Shown here: positions 8,276-31,112 of the stretch, one piece after another
Layout: the number at the start of each line of letters is the position of its first letter
Position numbering within the stretch: position 1 is the stretch's first letter
NCBI RefSeq assembly: GCF_000331535.1
Contig: NZ_AMZN01000036.1
Coordinates: 1-36,335 of the forward strand
Source of the DNA: Fulvivirga imtechensis AK7
GTDB lineage: Bacteria > Bacteroidota > Bacteroidia > Cytophagales > Cyclobacteriaceae
Length of the DNA stretch: 36,335 nt
Direction: 5' to 3'
Made by a program: the position numbers and the translations under genes
Notes under the pieces: generated by a model
Told to the model about the DNA's origin: nothing
Databases searched by the model: none
What the model saw: the letters and a program-made list of their open reading frames with translations, nothing else

Positions 8276-8797
8276 TTAGTGTATTGAAGTAATTCTATTG
8301 AACTGAGAAACCATGGACTCTGATATTTCCAGAACAGGGGTGTTTTTTTGTATTTCAAGACGAAACAAGGTTCTAAGTGCGTGATCCAACCTCATAAACT
8401 CTGTGGCCCTGGAAGCAGAAAGAGCTGAACGCATTTTTTTATAATGGCTTCTCCGAACTTTTGCAAGCACGCAGTCATTTTCAAGAAGTGCATCATAAAG
8501 CATGACTTTGTCGGATTCTTTCAACTCACCGACATACCCGGTTTGCAATTCCATGATCTGGAGGTACTCCACTTCAAGATCTTCAATAGCCTGCTGATAA
8601 TCATCGTACACAGGCCAAAAGGCCATCCTTTCCGTCTCCGTCAACTGCATATGTAAATATATTACCTTCCTTTGCTCTGCCTTCCAAAGGTTGTACGTTG
8701 TTCTTGCAGAGCTATCGTCTACCTGCGCTCTACCTGTCAGAAAAGCAACCATAAGACTACATGCGATAGTGGGTATTTTAAGATTTTGCATAACCAT
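8276..8797 (-). CDS. Exported CpxP/Spy-like helical protein, paralogue B
   Basis: The 173-aa product has a signal peptide (IACSLMVAFLTGRAQ, ending near residue 25); initiation could be at residue 1 or at the second ATG two codons later. The mature region aligns along its whole length with paralogue A, including LHMQLTETERMAFWPVYDDY, ELKESDKVMLYDALLEN and RATEFMRLDHALR, with a better-preserved FWPVY motif. It is helical with no catalytic motif. The last codons lie in repeat-like sequence, so the natural C terminus may have been altered. The gene lies just downstream of the truncated rtcB fragment on the same strand. Confidence 0.7.
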   Translation of the reverse strand: MVMQNLKIPTIACSLMVAFLTGRAQVDDSSARTTYNLWKAEQRKVIYLHMQLTETERMAFWPVYDDYQQAIEDLEVEYLQIMELQTGYVGELKESDKVMLYDALLENDCVLAKVRRSHYKKMRSALSASRATEFMRLDHALRTLFRLEIQKNTPVLEISESMVSQFNRITSIH

Positions 8798-8869
8798 AAT
8801 TTTATACCTTTCAATTTACATCTTACAGGCACCAGGGCGAATGACGAATGTTATTAAAAACGGAGACTT

Positions 8870-9204
8870 TCTGTCGAGATGAGACCGAAGCAGACGGACG
8901 CCACAATTAATATCATACCCAATCCCCCCGGGAGATATAGCTCCCCCGGGCCACTCGGTAGCTGCTACCCCTCCGATCGGAAAACCATAACCTTCATGAA
9001 CATCAGGCATCGCCATAGCAGCCTTGCAAATACCCGGTAGCGTGGCACATTTGTCAACTGTTGCAGGGACTTGTCGTTTCCTATCTCCGCCAGCAGTCTC
9101 TCAGAGGCATATACATGAGCGGGGACCACCATCCCTTTCCTCACAGTTTTAGGTAGTTCCCATAGATAGTCGTTTATCTTTATCAACTGGTCTTTCAGTT
9201 CCAT
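8870..9204 (-). pseudogene. rtcB: Truncated, frameshifted rtcB
   Basis: RtcB is the GTP-dependent 3'-phosphate RNA ligase, normally about 470 aa. Only about the first 110 codons remain. The first frame (from ATG 9204) gives an RtcB N terminus (LWELPKTVRKGMVVPAHVYA). A one-base deletion in the GTGGCCACG-type sequence near 9044-9046 then shifts the frame, and the second frame continues with the hallmark [14 protein letters not shown] and [16 protein letters not shown]. Restoring one base would give NVATLPGI, which fits the family. Homology stops around 8870 and unrelated sequence follows, so the catalytic C-terminal part is gone. It starts 3 bp beyond the archease stop, the usual partner arrangement. 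Confidence 0.9.
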
Positions 9205-9207
9205 TTT

Positions 9208-9620
9208 CTATATATCAAATACAACAATAGTCTCCAATTGCCCCAGGTCATTCGCCTGCATCTGAGCCTCGTAGTATGTAACTGCCTTAACGTCTTCATC
9301 AAATGATTTCACCCTGATGCCTTCCACCTCTCCATTAAGCTCAGTATCCGTTAACTGCTTTATCTGTAATGTGGAGAATACAGCCTTGCATATGTGTGTT
9401 AGGGTAAGGATCTCGTTGAGGAAATCTACCAGAAGGGTTGTAATATTTGATGAGCTTACTCGTATGATTTTTTTTTACATTCGGCTTCTGAGAGTCATAC
9501 ACTTTTTTTCAAAATAAATCCCATGCCCTCCAACCCGGCCTTAAACAATTCCTGTTTGGCAGGGGCTCTCAACCGCATGCGAATATCAGCGGTGTGTGGC
9601 AGGTACTGTATCGTTCTCAT
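9208..9620 (-). pseudogene. Archease pseudogene with two homopolymer frameshifts
   Basis: Archease is the activating partner of RtcB (about 140 aa). The region encodes a full-length archease only if two shifts are allowed. From ATG 9620 the first frame reads YLPHTADIRMRL, the family's opening motif. It is interrupted at a run of seven T (9503-9509 on the plus strand). The middle piece encodes VYDSQKPNVK. A second shift follows at a run of nine T (9468-9476). The last frame encodes IIRVSSSNITTLLVDFLNEI and ends LETIVVFDI before the TAG at 9208-9210. Coding similarity over the whole length is clear, so this is a relatively recent inactivation or, less likely, sequencing error in homopolymers. 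rtcB follows 3 bp later. Confidence 0.88.
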
Positions 9621-9653
9621 TGTGGAAGGCTAATGGTAAGCGTATAAAGTAAG

Positions 9654-9676
9654 AAGGCGGATGTTCAATCCGCCTT
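9654..9676 (-). terminator. Intrinsic terminator-like hairpin of RNA copy 1
   Basis: AAGGCGGAT (9654-9662) pairs perfectly with ATCCGCCTT (9668-9676) around a 5-base loop. On the minus strand it is followed by a moderately U-rich TTCTTACTTTATA. It lies between the RNA unit and the archease ATG at 9620, so it could attenuate the operon. Confidence 0.6.
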
Positions 9677-9838
9677 CCGATAACATAGTTTAGTGCCTTT
9701 TGCAGCGGTTATTCTATATTACCTGCACAACCAAGACCTTAGCAGCCAAGATGCTGTTTTTACTACAGCCAATCGGATATGTAGTTTAGTGCCTGTTAAA
9801 ACACCTATATCTATTATCCTCACCTACTCGACTAAATA

Positions 9839-9980
9839 GCGTCTCTAAGAAAACGTCAATTTCTGCGTTATGCTCGTCCCAAAAAATGCTCACGTACCCC
9901 AGTACGCTCCGCTTTTTGGTACTTCGCAAGCCTTGATCTCGCCGTTTTCTTAAAGCCACATAGAGTTTTCTTACAAACAC
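9839..9980 (-). mobile_element. Complete TANNTA element inside RNA copy 1
   Basis: This 142-bp non-coding element is inverted relative to the copies at 14016 and 17945. It is bounded by GCGTCTCTAAGAAAAC and GTTTTCTTACAAACAC and flanked by a perfect 6-bp duplication TAAATA (9833-9838 and 9981-9986). It carries the internal hairpin region with gtacgctccgc and the inner tandem copy of the terminal sequence. No reading frame of note. The structured RNA alignment resumes on both sides, showing that it inserted into a pre-existing unit. Confidence 0.88.
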
Positions 9981-10008
9981 TAAATAAGAATTTGGCTATG
10001 TTTCGATA

Positions 10009-10016
10009 TAAAGATA
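10009..10016 (-). promoter_or_regulatory. Candidate -7 box for RNA copy 1
   Basis: The minus-strand sequence TATCTTTA matches the Bacteroidota -7 consensus TAnnTTTG at all but the last position. It sits in a GTGTATCTTTATA block conserved in copy 2. No good -33 TTTG was found. Confidence 0.3.
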
Positions 10017-10218
10017 CACTTTGGCGGGCTCGGTTGGCGGTGATGAGGATCACTGATCAGTAAGAGTTTTATCATATAGGTGGCGGGCCGTAAGCCGCAA
10101 GCTTTAAGGGATTAAGCGGAAAATCTGTGAAGTCCTGGCATTTAAAATACTATAAATTATCAGCATCCTGAAATTTTCGGAGAGGAACAGAAAATAATGG
10201 ACAACTGTACGGGACTAC

Positions 10219-10284
10219 CGCTTTTTGGCACTTCGTCCCGCCCTTTGGCGGGAACGTTTTCTTAAAGCCGCTTAGAGTTTTCTT
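10219..10284 (-). mobile_element. Truncated TANNTA element
   Basis: Sixty-six bases match the element interior and inner left end (cgctttttggcacttcgtcc through gagttttctt) of the 17945-18088 copy with about one mismatch. Both outer ends are missing and no target duplication remains. Confidence 0.75.
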
Positions 10285-10307
10285 CGATATAAAATGCTCA
10301 AAAAGGG

Positions 10308-10443
10308 CAGTCATCCTATTCCGAAGGCTTTAAGGCTTTCGGGAGAAGGATCTTCCTAAGTTGTTGGTAGTATACTTGAATTTAGTAAGATTCTTCGTGC
10401 CTCCCCGAGGCAAGTTAGGCAAGTTCGGGACAGGAAGAATGAC
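10308..10443. repeat. Palindromic intergenic repeat with GTCAT-type ends
   Basis: The segment begins gcagtcatcctattcc and ends ggaagaatgacc, which are imperfect inverted ends. Inside is a stem of about 16 bp centred near 10333 (ATCCT, TTCCGAAG with CTTTCGG, AGGAT) and a second hairpin at gtgcctccccgaggcaag. A degraded partial copy is at 8147-8275. Short palindromic repeats with GTCATTC-like ends are, from memory, common between genes in Bacteroidota. Confidence 0.5.
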
Positions 10444-10542
10444 CTTAAAAAGAGGTTTTTAGGTTATTTTTGGATATGAATACAATTTTTATCGGTTCTA
10501 CTATATCGAACTCACGTTATATTAGTCTATTAGCTCGATAGC

Positions 10543-10567
10543 AAAAAAAGGCGGAGCTACGTCCGCC
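10543..10567 (-). terminator. Intrinsic terminator of RNA copy 2
   Basis: GGCGGA (10550-10555) pairs with TCCGCC (10562-10567) around a 6-base loop. The minus-strand transcript then has seven consecutive U (10549-10543). This is a textbook rho-independent terminator. Confidence 0.8.
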
Positions 10568-10753
10568 TTCCGGACAACATAGTTTAGTACCTTTTGAAGC
10601 AGTTATTCTATGTCGTCCTACATAACCAAAACCTTTCGACTAAGCAACTGCTTTTGCTGCAGTCAGTCGGACGGAATAGTTTCATACCTGTTACAGTACA
10701 TATATCTATTATCCTGTTTACCTCAATCTCTTAGACTTTGACTATGTTTGGTA

Positions 10754-10761
10754 TAAAGATA
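10754..10761 (-). promoter_or_regulatory. Candidate -7 box for RNA copy 2
   Basis: TATCTTTA on the minus strand is one base from TAnnTTTG and is conserved in copy 1 in the same position. The -33 element is not clear, so this is tentative. Confidence 0.3.
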
Positions 10762-10816
10762 CACAATATAACACTATTTTACCGATGACGGAAGTCACAA
10801 ATTAATGAGGATTTTA

Positions 10817-11683
10817 TCATTTGGGCAGTTCGTTTTCTACCTCTATATAAGTTCTTCTGTCCATGGTAATGTTTAGTCGTTTCATCATTTCACCAGGGTC
10901 AAATCCCTCCTTCCTGTATGCTGTCTGCACAACTTCCTTTGCGTTGTTCAGTGCTGCTTCACTCTCCCATTTGGCCACAGTTAGGTATATCCGATTTCCG
11001 TTATTGTCAGTATTTTTACAAACAGCATCTTCAACAAAGCCAGGTAGTTTTCGGATCAACTTTCTGTTTGCATTCATTCTTCCCACAAATTCGGCCTCTG
11101 CATCTGCAGGCACCAAAAATTTATCAATAAAAACCACCTGCTCCCGGTCGATTTTCTTTTCTATTAAGCTCAAGTCCGGAACAATCCCAATTTGCTGCAA
11201 AAAAGTTAACCTGTCTACCTGTACCTCTGAGCTAATGATCCTGTTGTCTCTAAATTGATAAATGGCTACACTATTTATCGAAATGGTTTTACCAGTAGGC
11301 TCAATATTCAGATACGACCCGGTATGGGTCCCGTATATCTGCAATTTGGCAAAAGCCATATTACCCTCACCTGCCATTGTCTCTATTTGCCATTGGATAT
11401 CCGGTATAGTGCTGATAATGTCTATGGCAGGCGCCTTGAATGCCTCAACTCCTTTTTGCCCGTTTATTCCCATATAATCATCGGCTATAATATTGTTCAG
11501 CAATTCAAAATCCCTTTTATTCAGTGATTGAGTGTTGAGTTTTTCAATCAGTTCTTTGTTCTCCCTGACAGTGTATGCAGTGGTCTCCATATTTTTTCGG
11601 TTTTTATAGGTTTGATTTTTTTTCTGGGCGTTTAATGGTCCAGTAGCGACCAGTATTACCAGTAACAGATGTACTCGTTTCAT
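10817..11683 (-). CDS. Exported SnoaL-like (ester cyclase) protein with C-terminal ABM-like domain
   Basis: The 288-aa product has a signal peptide (HLLLVILVATGPLNAQ). Residues about 38-165 look like an NTF2/SnoaL-type cone fold (ELLNNIIADDYMGINGQKG, then IYGTHTGSYLNIEPTGK). Residues about 185-280 resemble an antibiotic biosynthesis monooxygenase-like dimeric alpha/beta-barrel (ADAEAEFVGRMNANRKLIRK, LPGFVEDAVC, VAKWESEAAL). The two-domain combination and export make the substrate unclear; no cofactor motif is visible. It is preceded on the same strand by an AraC-type regulator with a 70-bp gap, so co-regulation is likely. Structured RNA copy 2 begins about 55 bp beyond its stop. Confidence 0.7.
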   Translation of the reverse strand: MKRVHLLLVILVATGPLNAQKKNQTYKNRKNMETTAYTVRENKELIEKLNTQSLNKRDFELLNNIIADDYMGINGQKGVEAFKAPAIDIISTIPDIQWQIETMAGEGNMAFAKLQIYGTHTGSYLNIEPTGKTISINSVAIYQFRDNRIISSEVQVDRLTFLQQIGIVPDLSLIEKKIDREQVVFIDKFLVPADAEAEFVGRMNANRKLIRKLPGFVEDAVCKNTDNNGNRIYLTVAKWESEAALNNAKEVVQTAYRKEGFDPGEMMKRLNITMDRRTYIEVENELPK

Positions 11684-11753: not shown

Positions 11754-12527
11754 TCACCAATAAACGGGTGCCTTGGCAAATTCAGTGGGAGTTTGACCTG
11801 TGTATAGTCTAAAATCTTTGTTGAAATGTGCCTGATCGAAATATCCGGCATCAATAGCTACTTCGGCAAGGCTCTTTTCTTTGAGCCTTGAACGGACTAC
11901 GGATTGCATTTTTATAAGGTAGGAAAACTGTTTAGGAGAAACACCAACAACACGCCTAAAGCGCTTTTCGAAGGGATCGAGACTTATGTTGAGTGAAGCA
12001 GCCAGTAGCCGTATCCTCACCCTACCTCCTGCAGCACGCATATGCGCCAGAGCAGTCATAATCAATGGGTCACCCTGCTCATGATGCAATTTGGAGGTCA
12101 AAAAACTTTCGATCAGGTTTATCCTCTGATAGTTGCAGGAAGCATCTGCTAACCGCTCTTCTATAAATGATGTATCACTATAGCCAGTCAAATGCATAAG
12201 AGATATGCTGTCTTCAAACAACTCGTGAAGTGGCTCCTTAATAAATGCCCGGGCGCCTGCTTCCTTAAATTTCACCAGTACATTACCACTGCCATCTAAA
12301 TAGTTGATGAGTCGCGCTGACTTTCGCATGCCTGTAACCACAGATGGGGTGAGTACATTCTTCACTCCATTTGCCGTGTAGCTGACATGCCCCTTATACC
12401 TGAAAGCTACAACCAATGAAGTACCCGGAAACACACGGTTCGATACCTCTTCAGAACATTCGATAACCACATATCTATCAATAAAAGGAGCCAGTCCTGC
12501 AGAAGGTGTGTAGGTTTGTATTGTCAT
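11754..12527 (-). CDS. AraC family transcriptional regulator
   Basis: The 257-aa protein has the C-terminal AraC/XylS double helix-turn-helix (about 165-255), including VRIRLLAASLNISLDPFEKR, FRRVVGVSPKQF and LAEVAIDAGYFDQAHFNKDF followed by GQTPTEF. The N-terminal 150 residues match the DUF6597-like sensor region of AraC proteins that begin with a Pxx-LaPFIdxY signature (SAGLAPFIDRYVV). No ligand can be named. The closest target is the exported SnoaL/ABM gene immediately downstream in the same direction. It is divergent from the PAQR gene. Confidence 0.85.
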   Translation of the reverse strand: MTIQTYTPSAGLAPFIDRYVVIECSEEVSNRVFPGTSLVVAFRYKGHVSYTANGVKNVLTPSVVTGMRKSARLINYLDGSGNVLVKFKEAGARAFIKEPLHELFEDSISLMHLTGYSDTSFIEERLADASCNYQRINLIESFLTSKLHHEQGDPLIMTALAHMRAAGGRVRIRLLAASLNISLDPFEKRFRRVVGVSPKQFSYLIKMQSVVRSRLKEKSLAEVAIDAGYFDQAHFNKDFRLYTGQTPTEFAKAPVYW

Positions 12528-12685
12528 GTTCTAATAGCTACACAAATGTGTACGTGCAGAGGCTTAATTGGTTTTGCAGTTGTGAAAGAGAGGAAGCTCA
12601 ACATGATCATGATCATATTTCTAAAGTTGCTAACTTTTTATCTTTAACGCAGCTTGTTATATCAAAAAGAACGTTAAAGAAAAGT

Positions 12686-13327
12686 ATGAATTGTAAAAAT
12701 GACAGTCCCGGAGATCAAAAAGAGGAAGTTATCAATGCTGTAACCCATGGCATTGGCACCTGTCTTGCTATGGCAGGATTGGTGATCCTTATTATTCTTG
12801 CCGTTTCAAAAGGCACAACCTGGCATGTGGTAAGCTTCTCTGTATTCGGGGCTACTATGGTGCTGTTGTACCTGGTGTCTACACTTTACCATAGCTTCAC
12901 CAGCGAAAAGTTAAAAAATCTATTCAGAAAATTTGACCATATGGCTATTTTCCTGCTAATCGCCGGTACATATACCCCATTTTGCCTTTCTTTACCGACA
13001 GGACTTCTCAGATGGATCATACTTGGTACAGTCTGGGGTTGTACCTTGTTGGGAATAATACTTAAGGTCTTTTTTACCGGCAAAAAAGACCTGCTGTCGA
13101 CTATTCTTTATCTTGCTTTAGGATGGCTGGCCATTATAGTTATGAAACCTTTGTATGATTATATGTCACTTGAGGGCTTCTCCTTCTTAATAGCCGGGGG
13201 GATATTTTATACCTTAGGCACCATCTTTTATGTGAAGCATCAGATCAGGTATAACCACGGTATCTGGCACCTTTTTGTGCTATCAGGTACTACTTTCCAT
13301 TTCTTCTCGATATTGACGCTGTTGTAG
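12686..13327 (+). CDS. PAQR/hemolysin III family membrane protein
   Basis: Starting at ATG 12686 gives 213 aa; the frame is open from 12506, but that extension is charged and not family-like. Seven hydrophobic segments are visible. Signatures include EVINAVTHGIGTCLAMAGL near the start, VSTLYHSF, FDHMAIFLLIAGTYTPF, and the C-terminal HGIWHLFVLSGTTFHFFSIL with the HxxxH zinc ligands. These match the bacterial HlyIII/YqfA group of PAQR proteins. The haemolysin name is historical; the likely role is in membrane lipid homeostasis. It is monocistronic with no clear terminator; a low-complexity tract follows. Confidence 0.9.
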   Translation: MNCKNDSPGDQKEEVINAVTHGIGTCLAMAGLVILIILAVSKGTTWHVVSFSVFGATMVLLYLVSTLYHSFTSEKLKNLFRKFDHMAIFLLIAGTYTPFCLSLPTGLLRWIILGTVWGCTLLGIILKVFFTGKKDLLSTILYLALGWLAIIVMKPLYDYMSLEGFSFLIAGGIFYTLGTIFYVKHQIRYNHGIWHLFVLSGTTFHFFSILTLL

Positions 13328-14006: not shown

Positions 14007-14452
14007 TTGTATTTAATGTCTATAAGAAAACTCTAAGTGTCTCTAAGAAAACGTTAGGGTCAAGGCTTGCGAAGGGCCAAAAAGCGGAGCGTACTGAGGT
14101 ACGTGAGCATTTTTAACGCAGACATTGGCGTTTTCTTAGAGACACTATTTAATAATTTTATTTGATGTTGCTAAAATCAGGGTTCAATTTAAACAAAATC
14201 AATGTAGCGAATAAATGATAGGTGGTTAGCGGTCTTATTTTATGAGTGAAGGCAATTTATCAAAAACAGAGGAGTTCTCTGTTCCCAATTTGTCGCTTAA
14301 CAGTTTCCTTTCATACTGACGGGTCAAAGTCGTCTGACACGGGTTGGGTTCGCGGTTTGTAGCTGAAGTTGTCATTTCGTTGATACGGATTACTATTCTT
14401 CCTGGGGGAGCAATAACTTCCCGCTTCCGTTACGGTTTTCCAACTCTTTCCT
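14007..14452. other. Intergenic region
   Basis: The first third is the element at 14016-14145. The remaining 300 bp up to the YtxH gene show no convincing reading frame, RNA or repeat. Confidence 0.5.
14016..14145 (+). mobile_element. Complete TANNTA element upstream of a small membrane protein
   Basis: This 130-bp copy begins ATGTCTATAAGAAAAC and ends GTTTTCTTAGAGACAC. It is flanked by perfect TATTTA duplications (14010-14015 and 14146-14151). It shares gcggagcgtactgaggtacg and the right end with the 17945 copy, but lacks the CCCGCC hairpin of that copy. Confidence 0.88.
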
Positions 14453-14698
14453 TCATTCCAACCCATTCACCGCTTCCTGCTGGTGGGTTGCAAGATCAGC
14501 TTTCCAGCTTCTGATCTCCATTTTGAGTTGTTCGAACTTTTCGTCCAGCATCAAGTTCAGCTCATCGGCCAGGCCTTCTCCCTTTTCGCTGATGTACCTT
14601 TCGGTATCAGATTCTTTTTCAGAGGCAAACAATGCTCCTATAACCGCACCGGCAGCCATTCCTGCCAATACCCCCAATAACGCTCTTCCGGTTCTCAT
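14453..14698 (-). CDS. YtxH domain protein
   Basis: The 81-aa product opens with a single membrane segment of the YtxH type (ALLGVLAGMAAGAVIGALFA) followed by ASEKE and a charged helical tail predicted to be coiled coil. YtxH proteins are small stress-related membrane proteins of unknown mechanism. Length and motif fit the Bacteroidota members well. Confidence 0.8.
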   Translation of the reverse strand: MRTGRALLGVLAGMAAGAVIGALFASEKESDTERYISEKGEGLADELNLMLDEKFEQLKMEIRSWKADLATHQQEAVNGLE

Positions 14699-14806
14699 AA
14701 CTGTTAATGTTTAGTGTTCTTAGTTCTAAAGCTATCACTTTGGATCTCATAGTAAAGTGATCTTCATCATAGATCCCGGATGATTTTTGTTGGCAGAACA
14801 ACAACC

Positions 14807-15541
14807 TCAGGAATTTACGAGCTGTCCTTTTTCAAACAGTAGTCGCATAATTTCTTCCGCCACTTGCCCGGCAGAATTCAGCTTACCTACTTTTTTGGCT
14901 TTCTTAAACTTTTTTACCTGGGGAAAATCCGTTTTTTTTACTGATCTGATCTTCGCTTGCATAGCTGTATCCATTTTGTAGGGTTCAAAAAGTATCATCC
15001 TCACAGGATATGAGCAGTTTTCCTGTTCACTGGCAACACTTTGTGTAAACTGGTTCAATGCCGCTTTGGCACTACCGTAGCAGCTCAATCCACTGTATCC
15101 TTTCCTTGAAGCTCCCGAGGAGATATTGATCACGCGCTTCTCTATACGAAGGTCTGTTGTTTTTTCAATAAACCGGGCGGTTAAGATAAATGGGGCCAGC
15201 GCGTTGAGGGCGAATGCACTGGCCACATCCTGGCTGCTACATTTATCGATAGGCTTTATAGGTTCTATGGTAGCAGCATTATTGATCAGTGTTATAGAAC
15301 TGGCATCATTAATATCGATGGCCGCAAAGGCATCATAAATGGCTCTTTCTACTTCATACCAGGCGCTGCCAAGGTTACAGGGAACATGTGATAGCCTATA
15401 GCCAAACTTTTTGGCATACTCCCACAGGTCGTAACTCTTTGTTCGGGAAATACCAACGACATGATTATGTGGCCCCAGTAGCTTAGCAGCCACTGCTTCG
15501 CCCAATCCCCTGGAAGCGCCTGTTATAATGTATACGTGCAT
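14807..15541 (-). CDS. SDR family oxidoreductase
   Basis: The 244-aa product is a classical short-chain dehydrogenase: the cofactor motif TGASRGLGEAVA is near residue 7, NNAAT is in the middle, and the active site has ISSGASRKG followed by YGSAK. The best resemblance from memory is to the sepiapterin/benzil reductase-like subgroup, which makes NADPH use likely. It starts 9 bp after fcl on the same strand and is therefore probably the last gene of the gmd-fcl operon. Whether it acts on a sugar or is a passenger is unknown. Confidence 0.85.
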   Translation of the reverse strand: MHVYIITGASRGLGEAVAAKLLGPHNHVVGISRTKSYDLWEYAKKFGYRLSHVPCNLGSAWYEVERAIYDAFAAIDINDASSITLINNAATIEPIKPIDKCSSQDVASAFALNALAPFILTARFIEKTTDLRIEKRVINISSGASRKGYSGLSCYGSAKAALNQFTQSVASEQENCSYPVRMILFEPYKMDTAMQAKIRSVKKTDFPQVKKFKKAKKVGKLNSAGQVAEEIMRLLFEKGQLVNS

Positions 15542-15550
15542 ATGTCGCCT

Positions 15551-16510
15551 TTAATGGGTTTGTAAGTGTCTTTTTTCATACTCGGCATAAACCTTCTGTA
15601 TGCCTTCCCATAGTTCTATTTTCGGATACCATCCCATATGGTTTATTCTTGTGGTATCTAACAGCTTCCTTGGCGTACCGTCAGGTTTTGCCGGATTAAA
15701 ACGCAAGCGGCCTTTGTATCCTATTACTGATTTGAGGAGCAGGGCAAGTTCATAGATGCTCAGGTCTTTACCGGTACCAACATTGATGATGCCTGGTTTA
15801 CTGTAGTTATTCATCAAAAACAGGCAGGCATCAGCAAGGTCATCCACATGGAGGAATTCCCGCCTTACCGTGCCGGTACCCCAGATTTCCACATCTCTTT
15901 CATCTTTAGTCTTTGCTTCATGGATCTTCCGTATGAGGGCGGGTAAAACATGAGCATTTTCCAAATCGTAATTATCATTCGGACCATAGAGATTAGTCGG
16001 CATCAGGCTAATAAAATTGGAGCCGTATTGAGCGTGATAGGCCTGACACAGTTTAATACCGGCTATTTTAGCAATGGCATAAGGCTCGTTGGTGGGTTCC
16101 AGCGAACCTGTAAGCAGGGCTTCCTCTTTCATTGGCTGTTGCGCATACTTAGGGTAAATACAGGAAGACCCTAAAAAAAGCAGCTTACGTACCCCTGACT
16201 TAAAAGACTGATGGATCACATTGTTCTGAATAGCCAGGTTATCATAGATAAACTCGGCCCGGTATGTGTTATTGGCATGTATACCTCCTACCCTGGCTGC
16301 TGCAAGAAATATATACTCCGGTTCTTCTATTTCAAAAAACCGCTGCACAGCATCCTGTTCGCGCAGGTCCAACTCTACAGATGTACGGAGTACAAAGTTG
16401 TAATACCCTGCTTTTTTTAGCTTCCGCAGAATAGCCGAACCAACCATGCCCTGATGCCCTGCAACATATATTTTAGCGTCTAAATCCATTGTTTCATATT
16501 TATCATTCAT
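15551..16510 (-). CDS. fcl: GDP-L-fucose synthase
   Basis: The 319-aa enzyme epimerises and reduces GDP-4-keto-6-deoxymannose to GDP-L-fucose. The Rossmann motif is [12 protein letters not shown]. The signature [20 protein letters not shown] and the following PYAIAKIAG contain the Ser and YxxxK active-site residues, and the length is normal. Translation may start at residue 1 or the Met at residue 8. It follows gmd at a gap of 27 bp, so the two form a complete GDP-fucose pathway from GDP-mannose. Confidence 0.95.
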
Positions 16511-16537
16511 TATTTTATCGTCTTTTAGGCTATCGTA

Positions 16538-17659
16538 CTATTCATCATACTTCAATACTTCAACGCCATTAGACATTAAGATCCTATCTCGTTCAAATAG
16601 CTTCAGGTCAGCAGCTACCATATCTTTCACCAGCTCCTGCACGGTATATTTCGGCTTCCAGTTCAGGCTGTTCCAGGCCTTGGCAGGATCACCTATCAGC
16701 AGGTCTACCTCAGTGGGTCTGAAATAGTTGGGGTCTACCGCCAGCACTACCTTGCCAGGCTCCACGAAATGGTCGATGCTTGTGCTTTCTACCACTCTGG
16801 CGACCTCGTTCACACCACTTCCTTCAAATGCTATCACTATGCCCGCCTCAGCGAATGCCATACGGGCAAAATCACGAACTGTGGTACTTACTCCGGTAGC
16901 AATCACGTAGTCGTCAGGATTCTGTTGCTGTAAGATCAGCCACATGGCCTCCACATAATCCCTGGCATGCCCCCAATCCCGTTTAGCGTCCAGATTGCCC
17001 AGGTACAGCCTGTCCTGAAGCCCCAATGCGATACGGGCCACAGCACGCGTTATCTTACGGGTAACGAATGTCTCCCCACGCAACGGAGATTCATGGTTGA
17101 ACAAAATGCCATTGCAGGCATACATATTATAAGCCTCCCGGTAATTCACGGTTATCCAGTAGCCGTAAAGCTTTGCCACTGCGTATGGTGACCGTGGATA
17201 GAAGGGGGTGCGCTCCGATTGAGGCACCTCCTGCACAAGCCCGTAAAGCTCCGATGTAGAAGCCTGGTAGATCCTTGTCTTGTTAGTGAGGTTGAGCAGG
17301 CGGATGGCCTCGAGTATCCTTAGCGTACCCAGCCCATCGGTATTGGCAGCGTATTCAGGGATATCGAAACTTACTTTTACATGTGACATAGCGCCGAGGT
17401 TGTATATCTCATCGGGCTGTGTCTCCTGGATGATCCTGATCAGGTTGGTAGCATCTGTAAGGTCACCGTAGTGCATCCTGAACCGCACATTCTCCTCGTG
17501 AGGATCCTGGTACAGGTGATCTACACGGTCCGTATTTAGCAAGGAACTCCTCCTTTTAATACCATGCACCATATAGCCTTTGTTAAGAAGAAATTCAGCC
17601 AGATATGCTCCATCCTGACCAGTGATACCTGTTATAAGAGCGGTTTTGTTTTTTTCCAT
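16538..17659 (-). CDS. gmd: GDP-mannose 4,6-dehydratase
   Basis: The 373-aa enzyme has the N-terminal [19 protein letters not shown] nucleotide-binding motif. The active site is marked by [10 protein letters not shown] (Thr/Ser and Glu) and [12 protein letters not shown] (YxxxK). The segment [18 protein letters not shown] is diagnostic of Gmd. It makes GDP-4-keto-6-deoxymannose, the substrate of the downstream Fcl. It heads the minus-strand operon gmd-fcl-SDR and is divergent from the initiating transferase gene, with a 450-bp spacer carrying the TANNTA element. Confidence 0.96.
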
Positions 17660-18109
17660 GGTGAGACTTTTTCAATGTCAGTTTTGTCTGACAATAATAG
17701 GTACAGACACCTCGGTGGCTCAATGATGGAGGTATAGCGACTAAATGATTGTTGTCATCAACAGATTAAAAGAGTACTCAGATTAACTTGATCGTTAAAA
17801 GGAAAGCTCTTTCAAAATAATACAAAAGGTATGTCGATCACATTGAATGAGTAAAGTTTCCAGTAGCGGTGACTCCCGTCATTTCGGTTCATGCCGGGGC
17901 TACATACCTTTATAACCGGCATAAGATCTTTTGATTTTTAACTAGTGTTTGTAAGAAAACTCTAAGTGGCTTTAAGAAAACGTTCCCGCCAAAGGGCGGG
18001 ACGAAGTGCCAAAAAGCGGAGCGTACTGAGGTACGTGAGCATTTTTGGGGCGAGCGTAACGCAGACATTGGCGTTTTCTTAGAGACACTAACTAACCCGG
18101 CCTGACCTT
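17660..18109. other. Divergent spacer between gmd and the initiating transferase
   Basis: The spacer must hold promoters for both directions, but no clear TTTG/TAnnTTTG pair was found. An inverted repeat TGTCAG/CTGACA is at 17676-17693, about 20 bp upstream of gmd. A complete TANNTA element fills 17945-18088. The rest shows no gene. Confidence 0.5.
17945..18088 (+). mobile_element. Complete TANNTA element 21 bp upstream of the initiating transferase
   Basis: This is the best-preserved copy, 144 bp. Ends are GTGTTTGTAAGAAAAC and GTTTTCTTAGAGACAC, 16-bp terminal inverted repeats with two mismatches, flanked by perfect TAACTA duplications (17939-17944 and 18089-18094). The left end carries a tandem near-copy of itself (GTGGCTTTAAGAAAACG). 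Inside are a CCCGCC/GGCGGG hairpin and an imperfect palindrome around gcgtactgaggtacg. There is no coding capacity, so it is a MITE-like non-autonomous element; the parent transposase is not in the window. Confidence 0.9.
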
Positions 18110-19495
18110 ATGGAAGAGAAATACCATTCCCGCTTTATTAAAGTAATCTTATGTGCAGTAGACTTGATCCTGATCACCATCATTTTTACTATCCTCCAAA
18201 AATTAGGCCTTATCCAATTGTCGAGAGAAGATCTGTATTTCCTGTCCCTCATTTTTGGTTTTAGCTGGATAGCCACCGGACTTTTTTCCGGGATATATGA
18301 AATCAGCAAGTACAGCCTGATAAGAAGCCTTAGTATCAACCTGTTCAGTACATTACTGTTCCATATTATCCTCATCTACTTTACCCTGTACAGCCTGATA
18401 GCGCAAAGTATTAACTTAAAGGCGTTACTTACCCTTTACCTTTTTGCTGCTTTAGCAATGATAGGGACACGAATTGTTTATAAACTGGTGTGGAAATATT
18501 TCGAATTCTCCGGATTTGAGCTAAGGCGAATAGTAATTGTGGGTACAACCCGCTCCGGTAAAGCGCTGTATGATTTCTTTACCCTTCAGGCTGGCTCGGG
18601 CTATGTCTTCAAAGGTTTTTTTGATAACTACCCCAACCCTGATATTGTAAATCGTAAGCTGGTGAGGGGTACTGTAGACGACCTCAACGCTTTTTGCATC
18701 AGGGAAGGTATTGACGAGATCTATTTTGCATTGCCGCTGGTTCACAAGGAGCTGATAGAGCGCCTCGGCCGGTTTGCCGATGACAACTGTATCTATCTCA
18801 GAATTGCCCCTGATTTCAGCGAAGTAGTTCGCAACAGCCATAATGTGTTCCTGTATGATTCCATACCGGTACTCACCGTGAGAAAAGAACCGCTGGGCAT
18901 GTTTGTAAACGCTGCATTAAAAAGAGCCTTCGATATCATGTTCTCACTTACTGTTATTGTCTTCATTTTCCCCATTGTGATCCCCCTCATTGCGCTGACT
19001 ATTGTATGGGACTCCGAAGGTCCTGTTATTTTCAAGCAATTGCGTCCAGGAAAGAAAAATAAACTGTTTGAATGCTATAAATTCAGAACTATGTATGTGA
19101 ATGGGACCACTGAAAAAATGGCCGTGAAAGGTGACCCCCGTATTACCAGGGTAGGTGCTTTTCTGAGAAAAACGAGCCTGGATGAATTGCCTCAGTTCGT
19201 CAATGTACTATTAGGTGATATGTCGGTTGTGGGGCCGCGTCCTAACCTGCTCAGCCAACTTGAAGAGTACTCAAAAAGCATACGCAAGTATAAAGTCAGA
19301 CACTTTATTTCTCCCGGAATAACCGGCTATGCCCAGGTGAACGGCTTCAGAGGAGAAGTAAAAGAAATAGAGTTGATGGAAAAACGGGTAGAATACGATG
19401 TAGCCTATATGGAAAACTGGAGCTTGCTCCTGGACCTGAAGATCATATTGCAAACTGTACGGAAAATGGTGAAAGGTGATGAGCATGCTTACTGA
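18110..19495 (+). CDS. Polyprenyl glycosylphosphotransferase (initiating sugar transferase)
   Basis: The 461-aa protein starts polysaccharide repeat-unit assembly by moving a sugar phosphate to undecaprenyl phosphate. About 120 N-terminal residues contain four hydrophobic segments, followed by a CoA-binding-like Rossmann region (IVIVGTTRSGKALYDFF). A further membrane segment near 280 precedes the bacterial transferase domain with FKQLRPGKKNKLFECYKFRT, SLDELPQFVNVLLGDMS and VVGPRPNL. This is the WbaP/WcaJ type architecture. The sugar (glucose or galactose) is not evident. It begins a plus-strand operon with the WecG-type gene and a beta-helix gene, and its 5' region is interrupted by the TANNTA element. 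Confidence 0.93.
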   Translation: MEEKYHSRFIKVILCAVDLILITIIFTILQKLGLIQLSREDLYFLSLIFGFSWIATGLFSGIYEISKYSLIRSLSINLFSTLLFHIILIYFTLYSLIAQSINLKALLTLYLFAALAMIGTRIVYKLVWKYFEFSGFELRRIVIVGTTRSGKALYDFFTLQAGSGYVFKGFFDNYPNPDIVNRKLVRGTVDDLNAFCIREGIDEIYFALPLVHKELIERLGRFADDNCIYLRIAPDFSEVVRNSHNVFLYDSIPVLTVRKEPLGMFVNAALKRAFDIMFSLTVIVFIFPIVIPLIALTIVWDSEGPVIFKQLRPGKKNKLFECYKFRTMYVNGTTEKMAVKGDPRITRVGAFLRKTSLDELPQFVNVLLGDMSVVGPRPNLLSQLEEYSKSIRKYKVRHFISPGITGYAQVNGFRGEVKEIELMEKRVEYDVAYMENWSLLLDLKIILQTVRKMVKGDEHAY

Positions 19496-19524
19496 ATAAA
19501 ATTACGATAACAAAAGATCATCTT

Positions 19525-20319
19525 ATGGAAAAGGAAACGATCCTTTCAACCGGTATTTCTATAGCAACACCCCGGACGTTTGTGCGGGAGGTTATACGCC
19601 TGACAGAAGCTGATCACTCTTCATACATCTGCTTTGCTAATGTGCATATGCTCATAGAAGCTTACCGTAATCCTGAATTCCGCGACACGGTAAACAATGC
19701 GGAGCTGGTAGCTGCAGACGGCAGACCTCTTTCACTTTTTCTACAGGTCTTCAAAGGTATCAGACAAAAACGAATATGTGGAATGGACCTCCTGCCCATC
19801 CTCTTGTGCGAGGCAGAGCGGCAGGGGAAATCAGTTTTTTTCTATGGGTCAACCGCTGAGGTACTCAATAGCATGAGGGAGCGAGCAGGCCAGGAGTTTC
19901 CAAGGCTTCGGGTTGCAGGTCAATATTCGCCTCCTTTTCGACCTCTTGAACCCGAAGAAAAGCAGGAGATCTCCCACTGGATCAACAGCTTACACCCCGA
20001 CCTGCTTTTTGTCTCTCTGGGCTGCCCAAAGCAGGAAAAATGGATGGCAGAATTTCAGGACAAAATAAAAAGCTGTATGCTGGGTCTGGGGCAGGCTTTC
20101 ACTGTTTATGCCGGTAAAGAAAAAAGGCTGCCTTTATGGATGCGTAACCTGTCACTGGAATGGGTCTATCGACTTTACCTGGAGCCCAGGAGGCTGTGGA
20201 AGCGCTATCTCTATGGCAATTCATATTTCCTGATGCTGGTGTTGAAGCATGCACTAAACCAGTTGATAGCCCCTGTGAAAAAGTTCGCACGTTCGTCAAA
20301 CCCGGCGAATACGGCCTAG
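19525..20319 (+). CDS. WecG/TagA/CpsF family glycosyltransferase
   Basis: The 264-aa product matches GT26. Typical family marks are CFANVHMLIEAYRNPEFRD, ADGRPLSLFLQ (family D-G-x-P), FFYGSTAEVL and FVSLGCPKQEKWM, then YAGKEKRLPLWM. GT26 enzymes add the second sugar (often N-acetylmannosaminuronate or N-acetylmannosamine) to the lipid-linked first sugar. It lies 29 bp after the initiating transferase, in line with that order of action. Donor sugar is unknown. Confidence 0.92.
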   Translation: MEKETILSTGISIATPRTFVREVIRLTEADHSSYICFANVHMLIEAYRNPEFRDTVNNAELVAADGRPLSLFLQVFKGIRQKRICGMDLLPILLCEAERQGKSVFFYGSTAEVLNSMRERAGQEFPRLRVAGQYSPPFRPLEPEEKQEISHWINSLHPDLLFVSLGCPKQEKWMAEFQDKIKSCMLGLGQAFTVYAGKEKRLPLWMRNLSLEWVYRLYLEPRRLWKRYLYGNSYFLMLVLKHALNQLIAPVKKFARSSNPANTA

Positions 20320-20329
20320 CCGCAAAAGC

Positions 20330-22762
20330 ATGAAATCTCGCTCTACATATATCATTCTGCTGGCAACCATTTTCCTTTGCCTGCTGTCCGGCCCGCAAGT
20401 ACATGGCAAATGCTATTACCTGGCGCAAAATGGTGATGACAACAACAGCGGAACCAGTTCAGATAGTCCGTGGCGTACCTTGCAAAAGCTACAGTTGCAT
20501 CTTCTCTACATCAAGCCGGGCGACTCTGTGTTACTGAAAAGAGGGAGCATTTTTACAGGTTCGCTACACCTGCAAAAATGGGGTAACCCTGAAAAGAAAA
20601 TATTTATCGGAGCATACGGAACAGGTATACCACCCATTATCAAAGGCACTGTCGATCTAAAACAATGGACGTCTCTGGGAAATAACCTGTGGAAAGCAGA
20701 CTGGCCTGACAGTGTCATTCCAGCAGACCTTTTCATTGATGGTAAAAGGCAGTCTTTAGGCAGGTATCCCAATACCGGATACCTTTCAGCAAGTACACCA
20801 GGTGTTTCCAAAATCGAACTCAGCGACACCACCTGCCTTAACCAGGAAAACGGATATTGGTCCGGGGCCGAGGTGGTGGTTAAAAGCAGCAGGTGGACCC
20901 TGGACAGGCTTGCTGTGAAGCGCTTTGAGAATGGTACATTTTATTTTGAGGGAGCAGCAAGTTATCCTTTACCACAAAAAACCGATTATTTCATCCAACA
21001 GCATATTGCCACCTTAGATAGCCCAGGAGAATGGTTTTACGACCAAAAGCGTCAGGAAATAGTTCTTTATCAGGACGGAGTTGACCCAAACAACTTCAAC
21101 ATCGAGGTAAATACACTAAATTACGGATTGCACATTGCCGGATCAGGCTATATAGAAGTCGATGGTCTCGTTTTTTTCGGACAACGGGTAGCAGGGTTGA
21201 GCATCAGGAATAGCAAAGACATTGCTGTCACCAACTCCACCATTTCCAATATTTCTCATAATGGGCTGGAGGTCATTTCTTCCGAAAACATATATATTGG
21301 GAGCAACGTGATCAGTGATATTCACAATAATGGTGTGGAATGGCAAAACAACGATCAGGCTATCTTCACCGGTAACACTGTACGCAAGGTGGGCCTTAAT
21401 GCAGGACGTGGAGCCAGTGGAAATGGAACATATATCGGCTTTTACATCACCGGAGCAGGAGATCGTGATCATTTGATCGAATACAACACCTTTGACAGCA
21501 CAGGCTATACGGCTATCGACTTCAGAACGGGTAATACATCAGTACAGTGCAACCTCATCAGCAACTTCTGTCTTATAAAAGATGATGGAGGAGGAATTTA
21601 CACCTGGAACAACGATTTCGGGAACAATACGATCAGCAAAAATATCATTATCGGAACAAAAACACCTTCATTGCACAAGTCACATGAATCCTATGCTCAG
21701 GGCATCTACATTGACGACTTGTCCCAGGGTATTTCCATTAATGATAATACCGTAGCTTATTGTGAAGGCTCCGGTATTCTGATACACAATGCCGGCAACA
21801 TTTCAATCCAGGGCAACAAGCTGATGAATAACGGAAACAATTTTTTAAATAGTGAAAAAGCTCAACTGGTGGTGAAGCGCGATGCCATCGTACCTGCTGA
21901 TAAGTTCATCAGCAGGAACATTATTGCTGAGAATAACATCCTGGTGGCAGGCCGGGAAGATCAATATGCGGCACTGCTTTACTTCCCCGACCAAAAAAAC
22001 ATGGAGCAGGCTATTACCTTTGAAAGGAACAGTTACGCCACGCTGGCCACCAATTCATTCTACATCTACTATACCTCAGCAGACAATCTGTGTGACGGCT
22101 ATTCACAGCTAAGCTTTCAGGAGTGGCAGGAACATGCCGCAAAAGACCTTAGTTCCTCAGCTACAGCGTTTCCACGGAAGATGGTAAGCGGGAAACTACT
22201 TTTAGCAGAAAAAATGGAGAGGGAAAACTGGTTTACCTGGCCGGCCCAGACATTTCTGAATGTAACGCACACGGGGAGTAGCCCGGCCACCATTACGGCA
22301 GCCCCCGGAGAGGCACAGGAGGTACTGCTCTATAGAACAGGCTTAGCCTTTGACACAGAAAAGATCTATCGGTTATCTGTTACGATGAATACCAAACAAC
22401 CCGGAGAAATCGAATTTGTTCCGCTTATGAGTGAAGCACCATGGGAAGCTCTGGGACAGTATCATTGTCTGAAGAGTGATTCAATATTCAGAAACGTTAC
22501 TTTCTATTTTAAGCCCACAATAAACTGTGAAAGGGCTCGCCTGAATTTCAAATCCGATCAAACTTTGCATCTCAGAAATATTCAAGTTCACGAGATGCAA
22601 ACCCCTGTACAAACGGAGAAGGTCAGGCTTTTATACAATGGCACGCAACAAGAAATGACGTGTAAGCTGACCGGTTCATATGCTTATCTCAATGGGTTAC
22701 CCGTAAGCCGGGAGATGCGGTTGCCTCCTTATGGCGCTGTAATCCTGCTTGAGATTGAGTAA
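20330..22762 (+). CDS. Secreted right-handed parallel beta-helix protein
   Basis: The 810-aa product begins with a signal peptide ending near HGKC. A start region of the type YYLAQNGDDNNSGTSSDSPW and TLQKLQL matches the DUF1565/pectate-lyase-like opening. Residues about 255-520 consist of repeated N-rich coils (VTNSTISNISHNGLEVI, INDNTVAYCEGSGILIHNAG), the ladder of a right-handed beta-helix. The C-terminal 170 residues are beta-rich and could be a carbohydrate-binding domain. It follows the GT26 gene by 10 bp, so it is probably part of the polysaccharide operon as a lyase, epimerase or modifying enzyme. Catalytic residues were not identified. Confidence 0.8.
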   Translation: MKSRSTYIILLATIFLCLLSGPQVHGKCYYLAQNGDDNNSGTSSDSPWRTLQKLQLHLLYIKPGDSVLLKRGSIFTGSLHLQKWGNPEKKIFIGAYGTGIPPIIKGTVDLKQWTSLGNNLWKADWPDSVIPADLFIDGKRQSLGRYPNTGYLSASTPGVSKIELSDTTCLNQENGYWSGAEVVVKSSRWTLDRLAVKRFENGTFYFEGAASYPLPQKTDYFIQQHIATLDSPGEWFYDQKRQEIVLYQDGVDPNNFNIEVNTLNYGLHIAGSGYIEVDGLVFFGQRVAGLSIRNSKDIAVTNSTISNISHNGLEVISSENIYIGSNVISDIHNNGVEWQNNDQAIFTGNTVRKVGLNAGRGASGNGTYIGFYITGAGDRDHLIEYNTFDSTGYTAIDFRTGNTSVQCNLISNFCLIKDDGGGIYTWNNDFGNNTISKNIIIGTKTPSLHKSHESYAQGIYIDDLSQGISINDNTVAYCEGSGILIHNAGNISIQGNKLMNNGNNFLNSEKAQLVVKRDAIVPADKFISRNIIAENNILVAGREDQYAALLYFPDQKNMEQAITFERNSYATLATNSFYIYYTSADNLCDGYSQLSFQEWQEHAAKDLSSSATAFPRKMVSGKLLLAEKMERENWFTWPAQTFLNVTHTGSSPATITAAPGEAQEVLLYRTGLAFDTEKIYRLSVTMNTKQPGEIEFVPLMSEAPWEALGQYHCLKSDSIFRNVTFYFKPTINCERARLNFKSDQTLHLRNIQVHEMQTPVQTEKVRLLYNGTQQEMTCKLTGSYAYLNGLPVSREMRLPPYGAVILLEIE

Positions 22763-22769
22763 AAATACT

Positions 22770-23726
22770 TCAAAGCCTCGTCCTCATAATAATGGTAAAG
22801 AGATCGGATACTCTGGAAAAAGCCGCTTTCAGTCCTCTTTTGATCCTTCCGCCTACTACAAGGGGATAAATACGAACGTAATAGCCCAAATGGACTGCTA
22901 TGAAAGCACCTGCAGCCAGGTAAAAGCGGGTAAAAACGGGGAGCGATGAAAAAACAGCGGAACGAGACATGACTTCTCTGTAAGCATCTATGGCTATTTT
23001 AAAATGTGGATGTGTAGCGGCAAAGGAAGACTCCCCTATAAGTCGTGCGTAGTGCCTGAAGTCGCGCGAAGCACCCCCAAGGGTCTTATGGTAACCTACA
23101 AAGTCAAGGTTTCTGATCTTGCCTAAAAAAGCCATATTAGCCACAAAATGCCAGTCATTCCCGATTACCCTCCTGATATCGACCTGTTGCGCCACCTTTG
23201 TGCGCATAATACCGTGGTACATAGCTCCATGCATGACTTTGAGGTAATACCCCATCACCCTAACTACCGGTGAAGAGTTGCAAAAGTTGAACCCGTGCTC
23301 AAACTCAGCTTTCTGCCCATTAACAGTGTATTCTATAACTCCGGAAGCGAGAACAAAATTGTTGTTTTGTTCAAGGAAATCTACACACGCGCTTACGGTA
23401 TGCCGGGCCAAAGTATCATCCACTGCCAGCCACATGAAATAATCTCCCGAAGCATTTTGCAAAAGAAATTCAAAATTGGCCAACATTCCTAAATTTTCAG
23501 GATGTCGAACATACTTTATCTGTGGAGAAAGCTTTACCAGTTCACTACATATCTCAGAGGTCAGATCGGTGGATCCATTATCGGCAACAAGAATTTCAAG
23601 ATGGTCATAGTCCTGATCCAAAGCGGAGTGTATGGCCCGCTTCAGAGAAGTACCCCCATTATAAGTAGGTATGCCGATGGTTACCAGTGGTTTTTGACTC
23701 TCCTGTACTATGTTCTGATTTGTCAT
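22770..23726 (-). CDS. Glycosyltransferase family 2
   Basis: The 318-aa product has the GT-A fold opening VTIGIPTYNGGTSLKRAI, with SALDQDYDHLEILVADNGST, and the metal-binding acidic motif FMWLAVDDT near residue 105. A hydrophobic segment near the C terminus suggests membrane association. It is the last gene of the long minus-strand run and converges on the beta-helix gene with only 7 bp between stops. Donor and acceptor are not predictable. Confidence 0.9.
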   Translation of the reverse strand: MTNQNIVQESQKPLVTIGIPTYNGGTSLKRAIHSALDQDYDHLEILVADNGSTDLTSEICSELVKLSPQIKYVRHPENLGMLANFEFLLQNASGDYFMWLAVDDTLARHTVSACVDFLEQNNNFVLASGVIEYTVNGQKAEFEHGFNFCNSSPVVRVMGYYLKVMHGAMYHGIMRTKVAQQVDIRRVIGNDWHFVANMAFLGKIRNLDFVGYHKTLGGASRDFRHYARLIGESSFAATHPHFKIAIDAYREVMSRSAVFSSLPVFTRFYLAAGAFIAVHLGYYVRIYPLVVGGRIKRGLKAAFSRVSDLFTIIMRTRL

Positions 23727-23734
23727 TCTTTTAT

Positions 23735-26292: not shown

Positions 26293-26310
26293 AGGGAAAA
26301 GGTTAAGTTG

Positions 26311-27183
26311 TTAAGCTGTTTGATAGGCCAACTCCTCCGGAAGGGGTAAAAAATCCGAAGCACGGATGAAGTCACCTAATGTCAGGTCTTTACAAGCCGT
26401 ATCAATGTTAGGGGCTCCCTTCCTGGCCACCACATCATCTATGTTTATGGTTCTGAAGTCTATGCTAAACCTGGTCTTCCCTGAGGTGTTTGGCACAGAA
26501 GCATGTAAATGTGCTGCCGAGAACAAAATGATGCCTCCGGAGCCGGGAACTATTCGCAGCTCGGAATCGACCTCTACCCGCTCCCGGGGTGAAGGCTGCC
26601 AACGTGTGTCAGCATTGATATTTTCAGCGCATGTTTTCCTGCTTGCCTGCATCCACTCCTGATAGCTGAACTCCACAGAATCATTCTCAATGGGGCGCGT
26701 CCAATACTTCAGGTGAAAAGACAGACCATTTTCAGCAGTAATATCATAAATGGGCATCCACCAATTGATCTGATTCATAGGAGCTGAATACCAGGTATCT
26801 CTGTGCGGATGGAAAGCATATGCAATACCGGAGGTAAGGTAGCCATCACTGGTGGAGGTGCGCAGCCTGGGCACATCGAAATATGTTTTATCCAAGTCGC
26901 ACCCCTTTTCACGAAGTATCTGTTGTATAAATTCTTTAGACCTCAGGTGATGTATAAACTCGGGCTTAAGTGCTTTAAGTATCTCCACATACCGGTTTAC
27001 AGGCAGCTCCCATTGCGCATATTCAGGGTCAAGTCCTGCGAAAGCCTTACGTATCAGGTCGTCTGTGAAGCTACAAAAGGCCTTTGTTGCTTCAGAAGGA
27101 GAATAGGTGAATAGCCGTCCCTGGTAAAGGCCTTGTCTTCGTTCATTATCTGTTAAATCGGGATCAAAGTAAATAGCATTCAT
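26311..27183 (-). CDS. PhyH-like Fe(II)/2-oxoglutarate-type dioxygenase
   Basis: The 290-aa product shows the facial triad of this fold: HxD at about 127-129 (HPHRDTWY), a distal His at 225 or 227 (FSAAHLHASVPN) and the 2-oxoglutarate-binding Arg in GKTRFSIDFR about 11 residues later. The strand WWMPIYD and ENGLSFH fit phytanoyl-CoA dioxygenase-like enzymes. In this locus it is likely to hydroxylate a sugar or acyl substituent of the repeat unit. It lies between the RfbC-like and DUF2172/DUF4910 genes at short gaps. Confidence 0.78.
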   Translation of the reverse strand: MNAIYFDPDLTDNERRQGLYQGRLFTYSPSEATKAFCSFTDDLIRKAFAGLDPEYAQWELPVNRYVEILKALKPEFIHHLRSKEFIQQILREKGCDLDKTYFDVPRLRTSTSDGYLTSGIAYAFHPHRDTWYSAPMNQINWWMPIYDITAENGLSFHLKYWTRPIENDSVEFSYQEWMQASRKTCAENINADTRWQPSPRERVEVDSELRIVPGSGGIILFSAAHLHASVPNTSGKTRFSIDFRTINIDDVVARKGAPNIDTACKDLTLGDFIRASDFLPLPEELAYQTA

Positions 27184-27196
27184 GGTTTTTTATTTT

Positions 27197-27751: not shown

Positions 27752-27764
27752 TTTCTGAATGGTT

Positions 27765-30132: not shown

Positions 30133-30143
30133 GATTCTTTATT

Positions 30144-30599: not shown

Positions 30600-30624
30600 T
30601 TTAATTGTTTTTCTAGTTATTGAT

Positions 30625-31044: not shown

Positions 31045-31112
31045 TTTCTTTCTGTTAAAATGTAAAATAATAATACTTTTGAAGACAGGGCTTCAATTAC
31101 ACCAAAGGTGGA

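Follow-up and report, generated by a model that had tools for sequence, protein, structure and literature searches.

A previously undescribed family of structured small RNAs in Bacteroidota with an internal hairpin repeat and a CRP/FNR-type promoter pattern

Introduction

The regulatory RNAs of Bacteroidota are thinly described. In the stretch of DNA analysed here (36,335 nucleotides at its full length, hereafter the window), two diverged units lie in tandem on the minus strand next to sequences resembling archease and rtcB. An earlier note on this DNA had read compensatory changes between the two units as a sign of selection on RNA structure and had raised a possible kinship with Y-like RNAs. 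The locus poses the question of whether a structured RNA is encoded here and, if so, to which family it belongs, what might control it and how it might act.

Results and Discussion

Two genes of one RNA family

The units at 10543 and 9651 are two genes of one previously undescribed family of structured small RNAs. The RNA predicted for this family is about 200 nt long and consists of a long closing helix, two A-rich hairpins (A and B) that are homologous to each other, a small hairpin (hairpin 1) and a terminator. The first gene, copy 1, has the following features.

10543-10750, minus strand: whole predicted transcript; covariance models R1, R2 and R3 match 10570-10750, and the terminator ends at 10543
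10621-10746, minus strand: closing helix (5' arm 10733-10746 and 10722-10728, 3' arm 10621-10634 and 10638-10644), from pairing and covariation, its own arms pairing with each other better than, on average, with arms from other lineages
10669-10714, minus strand: hairpin A, with conserved A-rich internal loop and inner stem, found on an unfitted alignment as well
10645-10665, minus strand: hairpin 1, small (hairpin one of the earlier note)
10573-10618, minus strand: hairpin B (hairpin two of the earlier note), loop AATAACTGCTTCAAAAGGTACTAAA, also found on an unfitted alignment and resembling hairpin A
10543-10569, minus strand: intrinsic terminator, GGCGG...CCGCC followed by a T-run
10755-10797, minus strand: promoter, with a CRP-type palindrome TGACTTCCGTCA at 10786-10797 and a -7 box TATCTTT at 10755-10761
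10808-10819, minus strand: second palindrome, weak (5/8 letters), 22 bp upstream of the first

The 5' end of copy 1 probably lies near 10750, because the -7 box occupies 10755-10761; the unit that had been placed at 10543-10761 is present, with its outermost letters belonging to this promoter-like TATCTTT. The fold of 10543-10761 was better than that of all 200 dinucleotide shuffles (z -4.4).

The second gene, copy 2, is interrupted.

9651-10004, minus strand: copy 2 with its insertion; the covariance model covers 9676-9853, where its 5' arm falls inside the insertion
9679-9723, minus strand: hairpin B
9775-9819, minus strand: hairpin A
9753-9770, minus strand: hairpin 1, GCTGT/ACAGC
9651-9677, minus strand: terminator hairpin
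10010-10074, minus strand: promoter, with TGATAAAACTCT at 10063-10074 (6/8 letters), TGATCCTCATCA at 10041-10052 and TATCTTT at 10010-10016
9839-9979, minus strand: MITE-like insertion of 141 bp inside copy 2, with direct repeats TATTTAG at 9832-9838 and 9980-9986

The insertion, flanked by a direct repeat of 7 bp, interrupts the closing helix in its 5' arm, and the 363 nt that had been assigned to this unit (9654-10016) include it. The stretch 9654-9840, which is without the 5' arm, folds unremarkably (z -1.4, with 16 of 200 shuffles equally good). Ends related to those of the insertion (GTTTTCTTAGAGAC / GTTTTCTTAAAGCC) occur again at about 8073, at 10256, at 14052-14130 and at 17981-18073 of the window.

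Both hairpins and the terminators described in the earlier note exist in both minus-strand units, and the compensatory changes are real (ACTGC/GCAGT to GCTGT/ACAGC in hairpin one, C-G to U-A in hairpin two). That inventory had overlooked the long closing helix, and also that hairpins A and B resemble each other. An ATG frame in hairpin A, considered as a sign of coding function, was disrupted by indels between copies when compared by eye.

Copy 2 shares 79% identity with copy 1 and 83% with every one of four others, values that do not discriminate for orthology. Downstream of copy 2, 8276-8797 encodes a 173-aa protein with no Pfam match, and genome G008 has a 62%-identical homologue of this protein (L038, 7291-7857) downstream of its second RNA copy. 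This synteny supports orthology between that copy and copy 2.

Distribution of the family

Only two copies were found in the 6.7-Mb genome to which the window belongs, both by blastn and with the covariance models R1 (five same-genus sequences), R2 (13 sequences) and R3 (14 sequences); the 12 other blastn matches of copy 1 in this genome were 15-20 nt long with E > 1. A blastn search of 58 genomes with copy 1 as query was positive in seven, own genome counted. Two of the seven (G013/L019 and G028/L020) were weak and, like L034 and L126 below, were judged spurious once the sequence was read. Within the genus, R1 found the RNA in 4 of 15 genomes, own genome counted.

The large searches, of about 390 genomes each, scored six to seven candidates per genome, and their frequencies are therefore lower bounds: R1 matched 11 of 390 family genomes, the spurious L034 among them; R2 was positive in 12 of 390 family genomes, own genome counted, and matched 3 of 390 at the level of the order, where the doubtful L055 was the sole addition to the known copies; and R3 matched 8 of 395 genomes of the class, namely the own genome, six in families f36, f41 and f81, and the spurious L126. 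Five of the six genomes from other families had E values of 1.5e-9 or better. The sixth, G1030, was weak (E 0.019), yet its palindrome is complete and its hairpin B can be recognised. A scan of named genomes by sequence pattern yielded eight contigs, including Chryseolinea and three other MAGs (one of them palsa_966). Presence in just 12 of the 390 family genomes implies that the RNA serves no core function. Covariance-model searches of Bacteroidota genomes, which the earlier note had proposed, thus found homologues, and the Rfam search proposed along with them matched no family: with Rfam 15 there was no match at gathering score in the window or in 15 homologous loci, and at E up to 10 or 5 there were four low matches each, far under the gathering scores. 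In a limited literature search, no description of this RNA was found in the accessible parts of PMC2864571 and PMC9723704 or in the other literature covered.

At most two copies per genome were found, with two each in the own genome, G008 and G829. Each copy of G829 carries two full palindromes. The copies of this genome, which belongs to family f36, lie on one strand 3.4 kb apart (L158, 3040-3224 and 6618-6800). The doubtful L055 match, from another family of the same order, is an inverted repeat at 1537-1579 with one piece resembling hairpin A (TAGAAATAA...AAACTA), perhaps by chance.

The patchy distribution, the three genomes with two copies and the MITE-like repeats near the locus are what would be expected of a mobile or repetitive element of the REP or MITE kind, the structure of which would be due to transposition. 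Against this, no genome was found to hold more than two copies, the copies have a terminator and, at a constant distance, a conserved promoter, blastn with copy 1 found no match among phage and plasmid records, and one strict pattern found none in viral contigs. We consider this explanation very improbable.

Conservation of the structure and of the A-rich loops

Across the five same-genus sequences, the structure read by hand pairs nearly throughout. The larger alignments, being fitted to the structure, lean towards it: in A8 (13 sequences, copy 2 included) 92.0% of the cells were paired and both sides had changed in 42 of 55 pairs; in A10 (14 sequences, copy 2 left out) 90.1% of 756 cells were paired and both sides had changed in 44 of 55 pairs, compared with 27.4 in shuffles and 7-21 in slid versions; and in A11 (24 rows, including the three doubtful rows L034, L055 and L126) the corresponding values were 88.3% and 50 of 55, with 35.9 for shuffles and 19-29 for slid versions. 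An unfitted MAFFT alignment of seven sequences showed double changes in 15 of 49 predicted pairs. When 18 divergent sequences were aligned in the same unfitted way, hairpins A and B and their inner stems were recovered (13/17 pairs double-changed), but neither the closing helix nor hairpin 1. For the closing helix, the mean duplex energy was -13.1 kcal/mol with a copy's own arms versus -8.4 kcal/mol with arms of other lineages; own arms paired better than the cross-lineage mean in all 21 copies and were the best partner in only six of them. Thus, homologues from other genera and families, together with covariation, strongly support selection on the RNA structure, as the earlier note had argued from the two units.

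Hairpins A and B are internal repeats, since they align better with each other than shuffles do (p <= 0.05 in 15/21 copies). Hairpin B opens with [TC]AGAATAA in 16 of 21 copies, hairpin A closes with AAACT in 19 of 21, and every copy (22/22) is followed by a hairpin that resembles a terminator and has a T-rich tail. The counts over 21 copies (promoter, A/B repeat and closing-helix arms) omit L034, L055 and L126; copy 2 is in the promoter count and L048, which has too little upstream sequence, is out of it, whereas the A/B-repeat and closing-helix counts include L048 and omit copy 2, and the terminator count includes both.

FnrS is an E. coli sRNA under FNR-type control, and the present RNA could likewise be a trans-acting antisense sRNA that is induced within a regulon and pairs with mRNAs through its loops, A and B sharing one seed. 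The RNA has its own promoter and terminator, and the loop letters given above are highly conserved, as such a role would predict. However, beyond the two units the blastn search of the own genome, which short seeds may escape, returned only the 15-20 nt matches mentioned, and the conserved internal-loop letters on both sides of the helix would suit a folded binding site better. We regard antisense action as conceivable and worth keeping in view, though it is not the outcome that we would expect.

Genes next to the RNA

Near the copies, in one or more loci, we found genes for polX, Ku, LigD, PRS, NAPRTase, DUF892, BON and DUF2267, and further for LonB, baeRF, Usp, CBS and the Ribosomal_S30AE (hibernation factor) domain. 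Short-chain dehydrogenases were also seen near copies by eye, and the remaining neighbours were ordinary. Several of these neighbours are stress genes. We take the set to resemble low-oxygen or dormancy regulons, and it is because of this gene content alone that low oxygen is named below as a possible signal.

A structured RNA with a terminator-like hairpin at its end might also be a cis-acting leader, that is, a riboswitch or an attenuator of the downstream genes. These genes differ between copies, though, and several are on the opposite strand; copy 2 is followed by a broken archease gene; and hairpin B and the terminator are separate hairpins, one after the other, with no competing antiterminator noticed in an unsystematic look. 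A leader function is improbable.

The archease and rtcB sequences at 8816-9620 (minus strand) are truncated, frame-broken remnants in separate short ORFs. The RtcB piece corresponds to profile positions 16-62 of 426 and the archease piece to positions 2-30 of 136, under the Pfam cut-off. The archease ATG lies 33 nt after the 9654 unit (copy 2); the earlier note had the distance right, but the unit concerned is this one and the genes are broken. Such a neighbourhood, together with the long terminal helix, which is a Y-RNA-like trait, would fit a Y-like RNA working with RtcB and archease or with a Ro60 homologue, the kinship raised in the earlier note. The local pair has decayed, however, and RtcB was not recognised beside the other copies in ORF lists that were mostly without a Pfam scan. 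TROVE, the domain sought for Ro60, had no match in 70 Pfam protein queries covering the main ORFs of the window and part of the neighbours elsewhere. Rfam holds some Y-RNA models, and none matched at E up to 10. The proposed tie to RtcB and Y RNAs is barely credible in the light of these results: the RNA shares with Y RNA and YrlA a terminal helix and, in the own genome alone, the vicinity of a (broken) rtcB, but it differs from them in that no Ro60 gene, no Rfam match and no RtcB link elsewhere were seen. With regard to a tRNA-like module of the Y RNA / YrlA kind, ARAGORN, a tool built for whole tRNAs, reported no tRNA in the window.

The promoter pattern

Upstream of the RNA, a CRP/FNR-type palindrome, TGAY-N4-RTCA, is followed by a TAnnTTT box, which we take to be the Bacteroidota -7 element. 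Of 21 copies, 17 matched the downstream palindrome at 7 or more of its 8 letters (mean of letter-shuffled controls 0.385, maximum 4), and 11 did so for a further palindrome upstream of it (mean 0.455, maximum 3), the shuffled control being somewhat flattering because the consensus and the search windows were drawn from the same copies. The best-scoring positions of the two palindromes were exactly 22 bp apart in 18/21 copies, and the TAnnTTT box was present in 19/21. In the strict cases the palindrome starts 35-36 bases ahead of the box, a spacing that places the site near -41.5 of the predicted start.

Association with a REC-CRP regulator

A histidine kinase and a REC-cNMP-HTH_Crp regulator (REC-CRP) follow the RNA in the ORFs of G079, G029 and G128, and Pfam confirms the pairs of G079 and G029; in G008 a REC-CRP lies 2.2 kb from the RNA. 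Within the genus, a REC-CRP at 74% identity or more occurs solely in the 4 of 15 genomes that carry the RNA, the relatives in the other 11 reaching 51% or less. Among 32 family genomes, a score of at least 423 bits was obtained in 11 of 12 RNA-plus genomes and in none of the 20 RNA-minus genomes (best 407). The exception, RNA-plus G357, had a best-scoring regulator of 379 bits, and its member of the clade is a long branch.

In a tree of 53 REC-CRP rows chosen from the matches, a subclade of 15 rows (support 96/83) contains rows from RNA-plus genomes only, with all 12 of the own family (f1) represented. The sister of this subclade is from the RNA-minus G031, 14 further rows of RNA-plus genomes fall outside it, and G357, G251 and G135 form long branches. 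The distance between regulator and RNA was 1.4-26 kb in 8 of the 12 RNA-plus f1 genomes. Outside f1, all six RNA-plus genomes have a REC-CRP, but these do not form a single clade; in the RNA-minus genomes searched alongside (7 of the family, 7 of the order and 5 of the class), a REC-CRP was present in 12 of 19. The regulator and the RNA are thus associated, although the association is not made of independent events, because related genomes share ancestry.

A candidate mode of action

Together, these findings point to a self-contained, trans-acting sRNA induced by a REC-CRP regulator within a stress or low-oxygen regulon, of which it would be one output, a reading to which we assign a probability of roughly 0.7. 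A CRP/FNR-type activator, most likely the REC-cNMP-HTH_Crp protein of the one subclade, would bind the palindrome, whose centre lies about 41 bp ahead of the predicted start, in many copies together with the second palindrome 22 bp further up, and would turn on an RNA of about 200 nt with a terminator of its own at the end. In the predicted fold, the closing helix encloses hairpin A and hairpin 1, and hairpin B comes after it. The internal repeats A and B, with their conserved A-rich internal loops, may be the working parts of the RNA. They would most likely be bound by a protein, or otherwise offer their loop sequence for base pairing; protein binding is favoured because the letters on both sides of the internal loop are conserved.

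The arrangement resembles that of FnrS at the level of regulation, in that the RNA is free-standing, has its own terminator and is preceded by a CRP/FNR-family palindrome at an activator position relative to the predicted start. It differs from FnrS in being longer, in its long closing helix and two like hairpins, in having no Rfam match, in belonging to another phylum and in its candidate regulator, which by association is a REC-CRP response regulator and not FNR.

CsrB and RsmZ are titrating RNAs with GGA in their apical loops. As in these RNAs, the repetition of like hairpins in one molecule suggests several sites for one partner, whereas the present RNA has two repeats only and a motif AGAAUAA...AAACU around an internal loop. 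A more specific version of the REC-CRP-induced sRNA, which we think rather doubtful, is that the two A-rich hairpins beside the long helix form a two-site decoy for a global RNA-binding protein or a ribosome-associated factor. If this were true, the RNA would be a titrating-RNA dormancy switch in Bacteroidota, made in response to stress or low oxygen sensed by REC-CRP. 6S RNA, too, is free-standing and of similar size, forms a rod with a central single-stranded bubble and is near-universal; the present RNA differs from it in its branched shape, its presence in 12 of 390 family genomes and the absence of a 6S match in Rfam. For the Bacteroidetes, 6S-flavo (RF01685) is listed in PMC2864571.

The family adds to Bacteroidota a structured RNA with an internal hairpin duplication that is absent from Rfam 15. 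Its ties to stress genes and to one defined subclade of regulators make the proposed mode of action testable in Fulvivirga kasyanovii, F. marina and Chryseolinea sp.

Other occurrences of the promoter pattern

The strict pattern with its box occurs at 31 sites in the own genome (control 5). Across the genus, RNA-plus genomes had 21-31 sites (controls 1-5) and RNA-minus genomes 5-21 (controls 2-7), so that the pattern, exceeding the control in RNA-minus genomes also, is not confined to the RNA-plus ones. The 36-kb window holds five of the 31 sites, compared with 0.17 expected by length; two of the five are the RNA copies, and the others are these.

12604-12645, plus strand: promoter pattern at an HlyIII-like gene, inside the mechanical ORF 12506-13327
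14728-14769, minus strand: promoter pattern before an 81-aa ORF, 14453-14698
17870-17911, plus strand: promoter pattern before a polysaccharide gene (Bac_transf), 18110-19495

In the first case the pattern probably lies before the true start of the gene, because the HlyIII Pfam match begins at residue 72. The two-site composite of both palindromes was rare throughout, with 12 sites in the 15 genus genomes (control 5), and RNA copies account for 4 of the 12. One further composite site lies ahead of Hsp20 and BON genes in the own genome, on contig C31, which also bears this genome's REC-CRP regulator of the linked type; the RNA copies are on C36. The polysaccharide gene at 18110-19495 (plus strand) belongs to a polysaccharide gene cluster at 14807-34130, and a gene resembling the same sugar transferase, as judged by eye, lies near the RNA in L039-L041.
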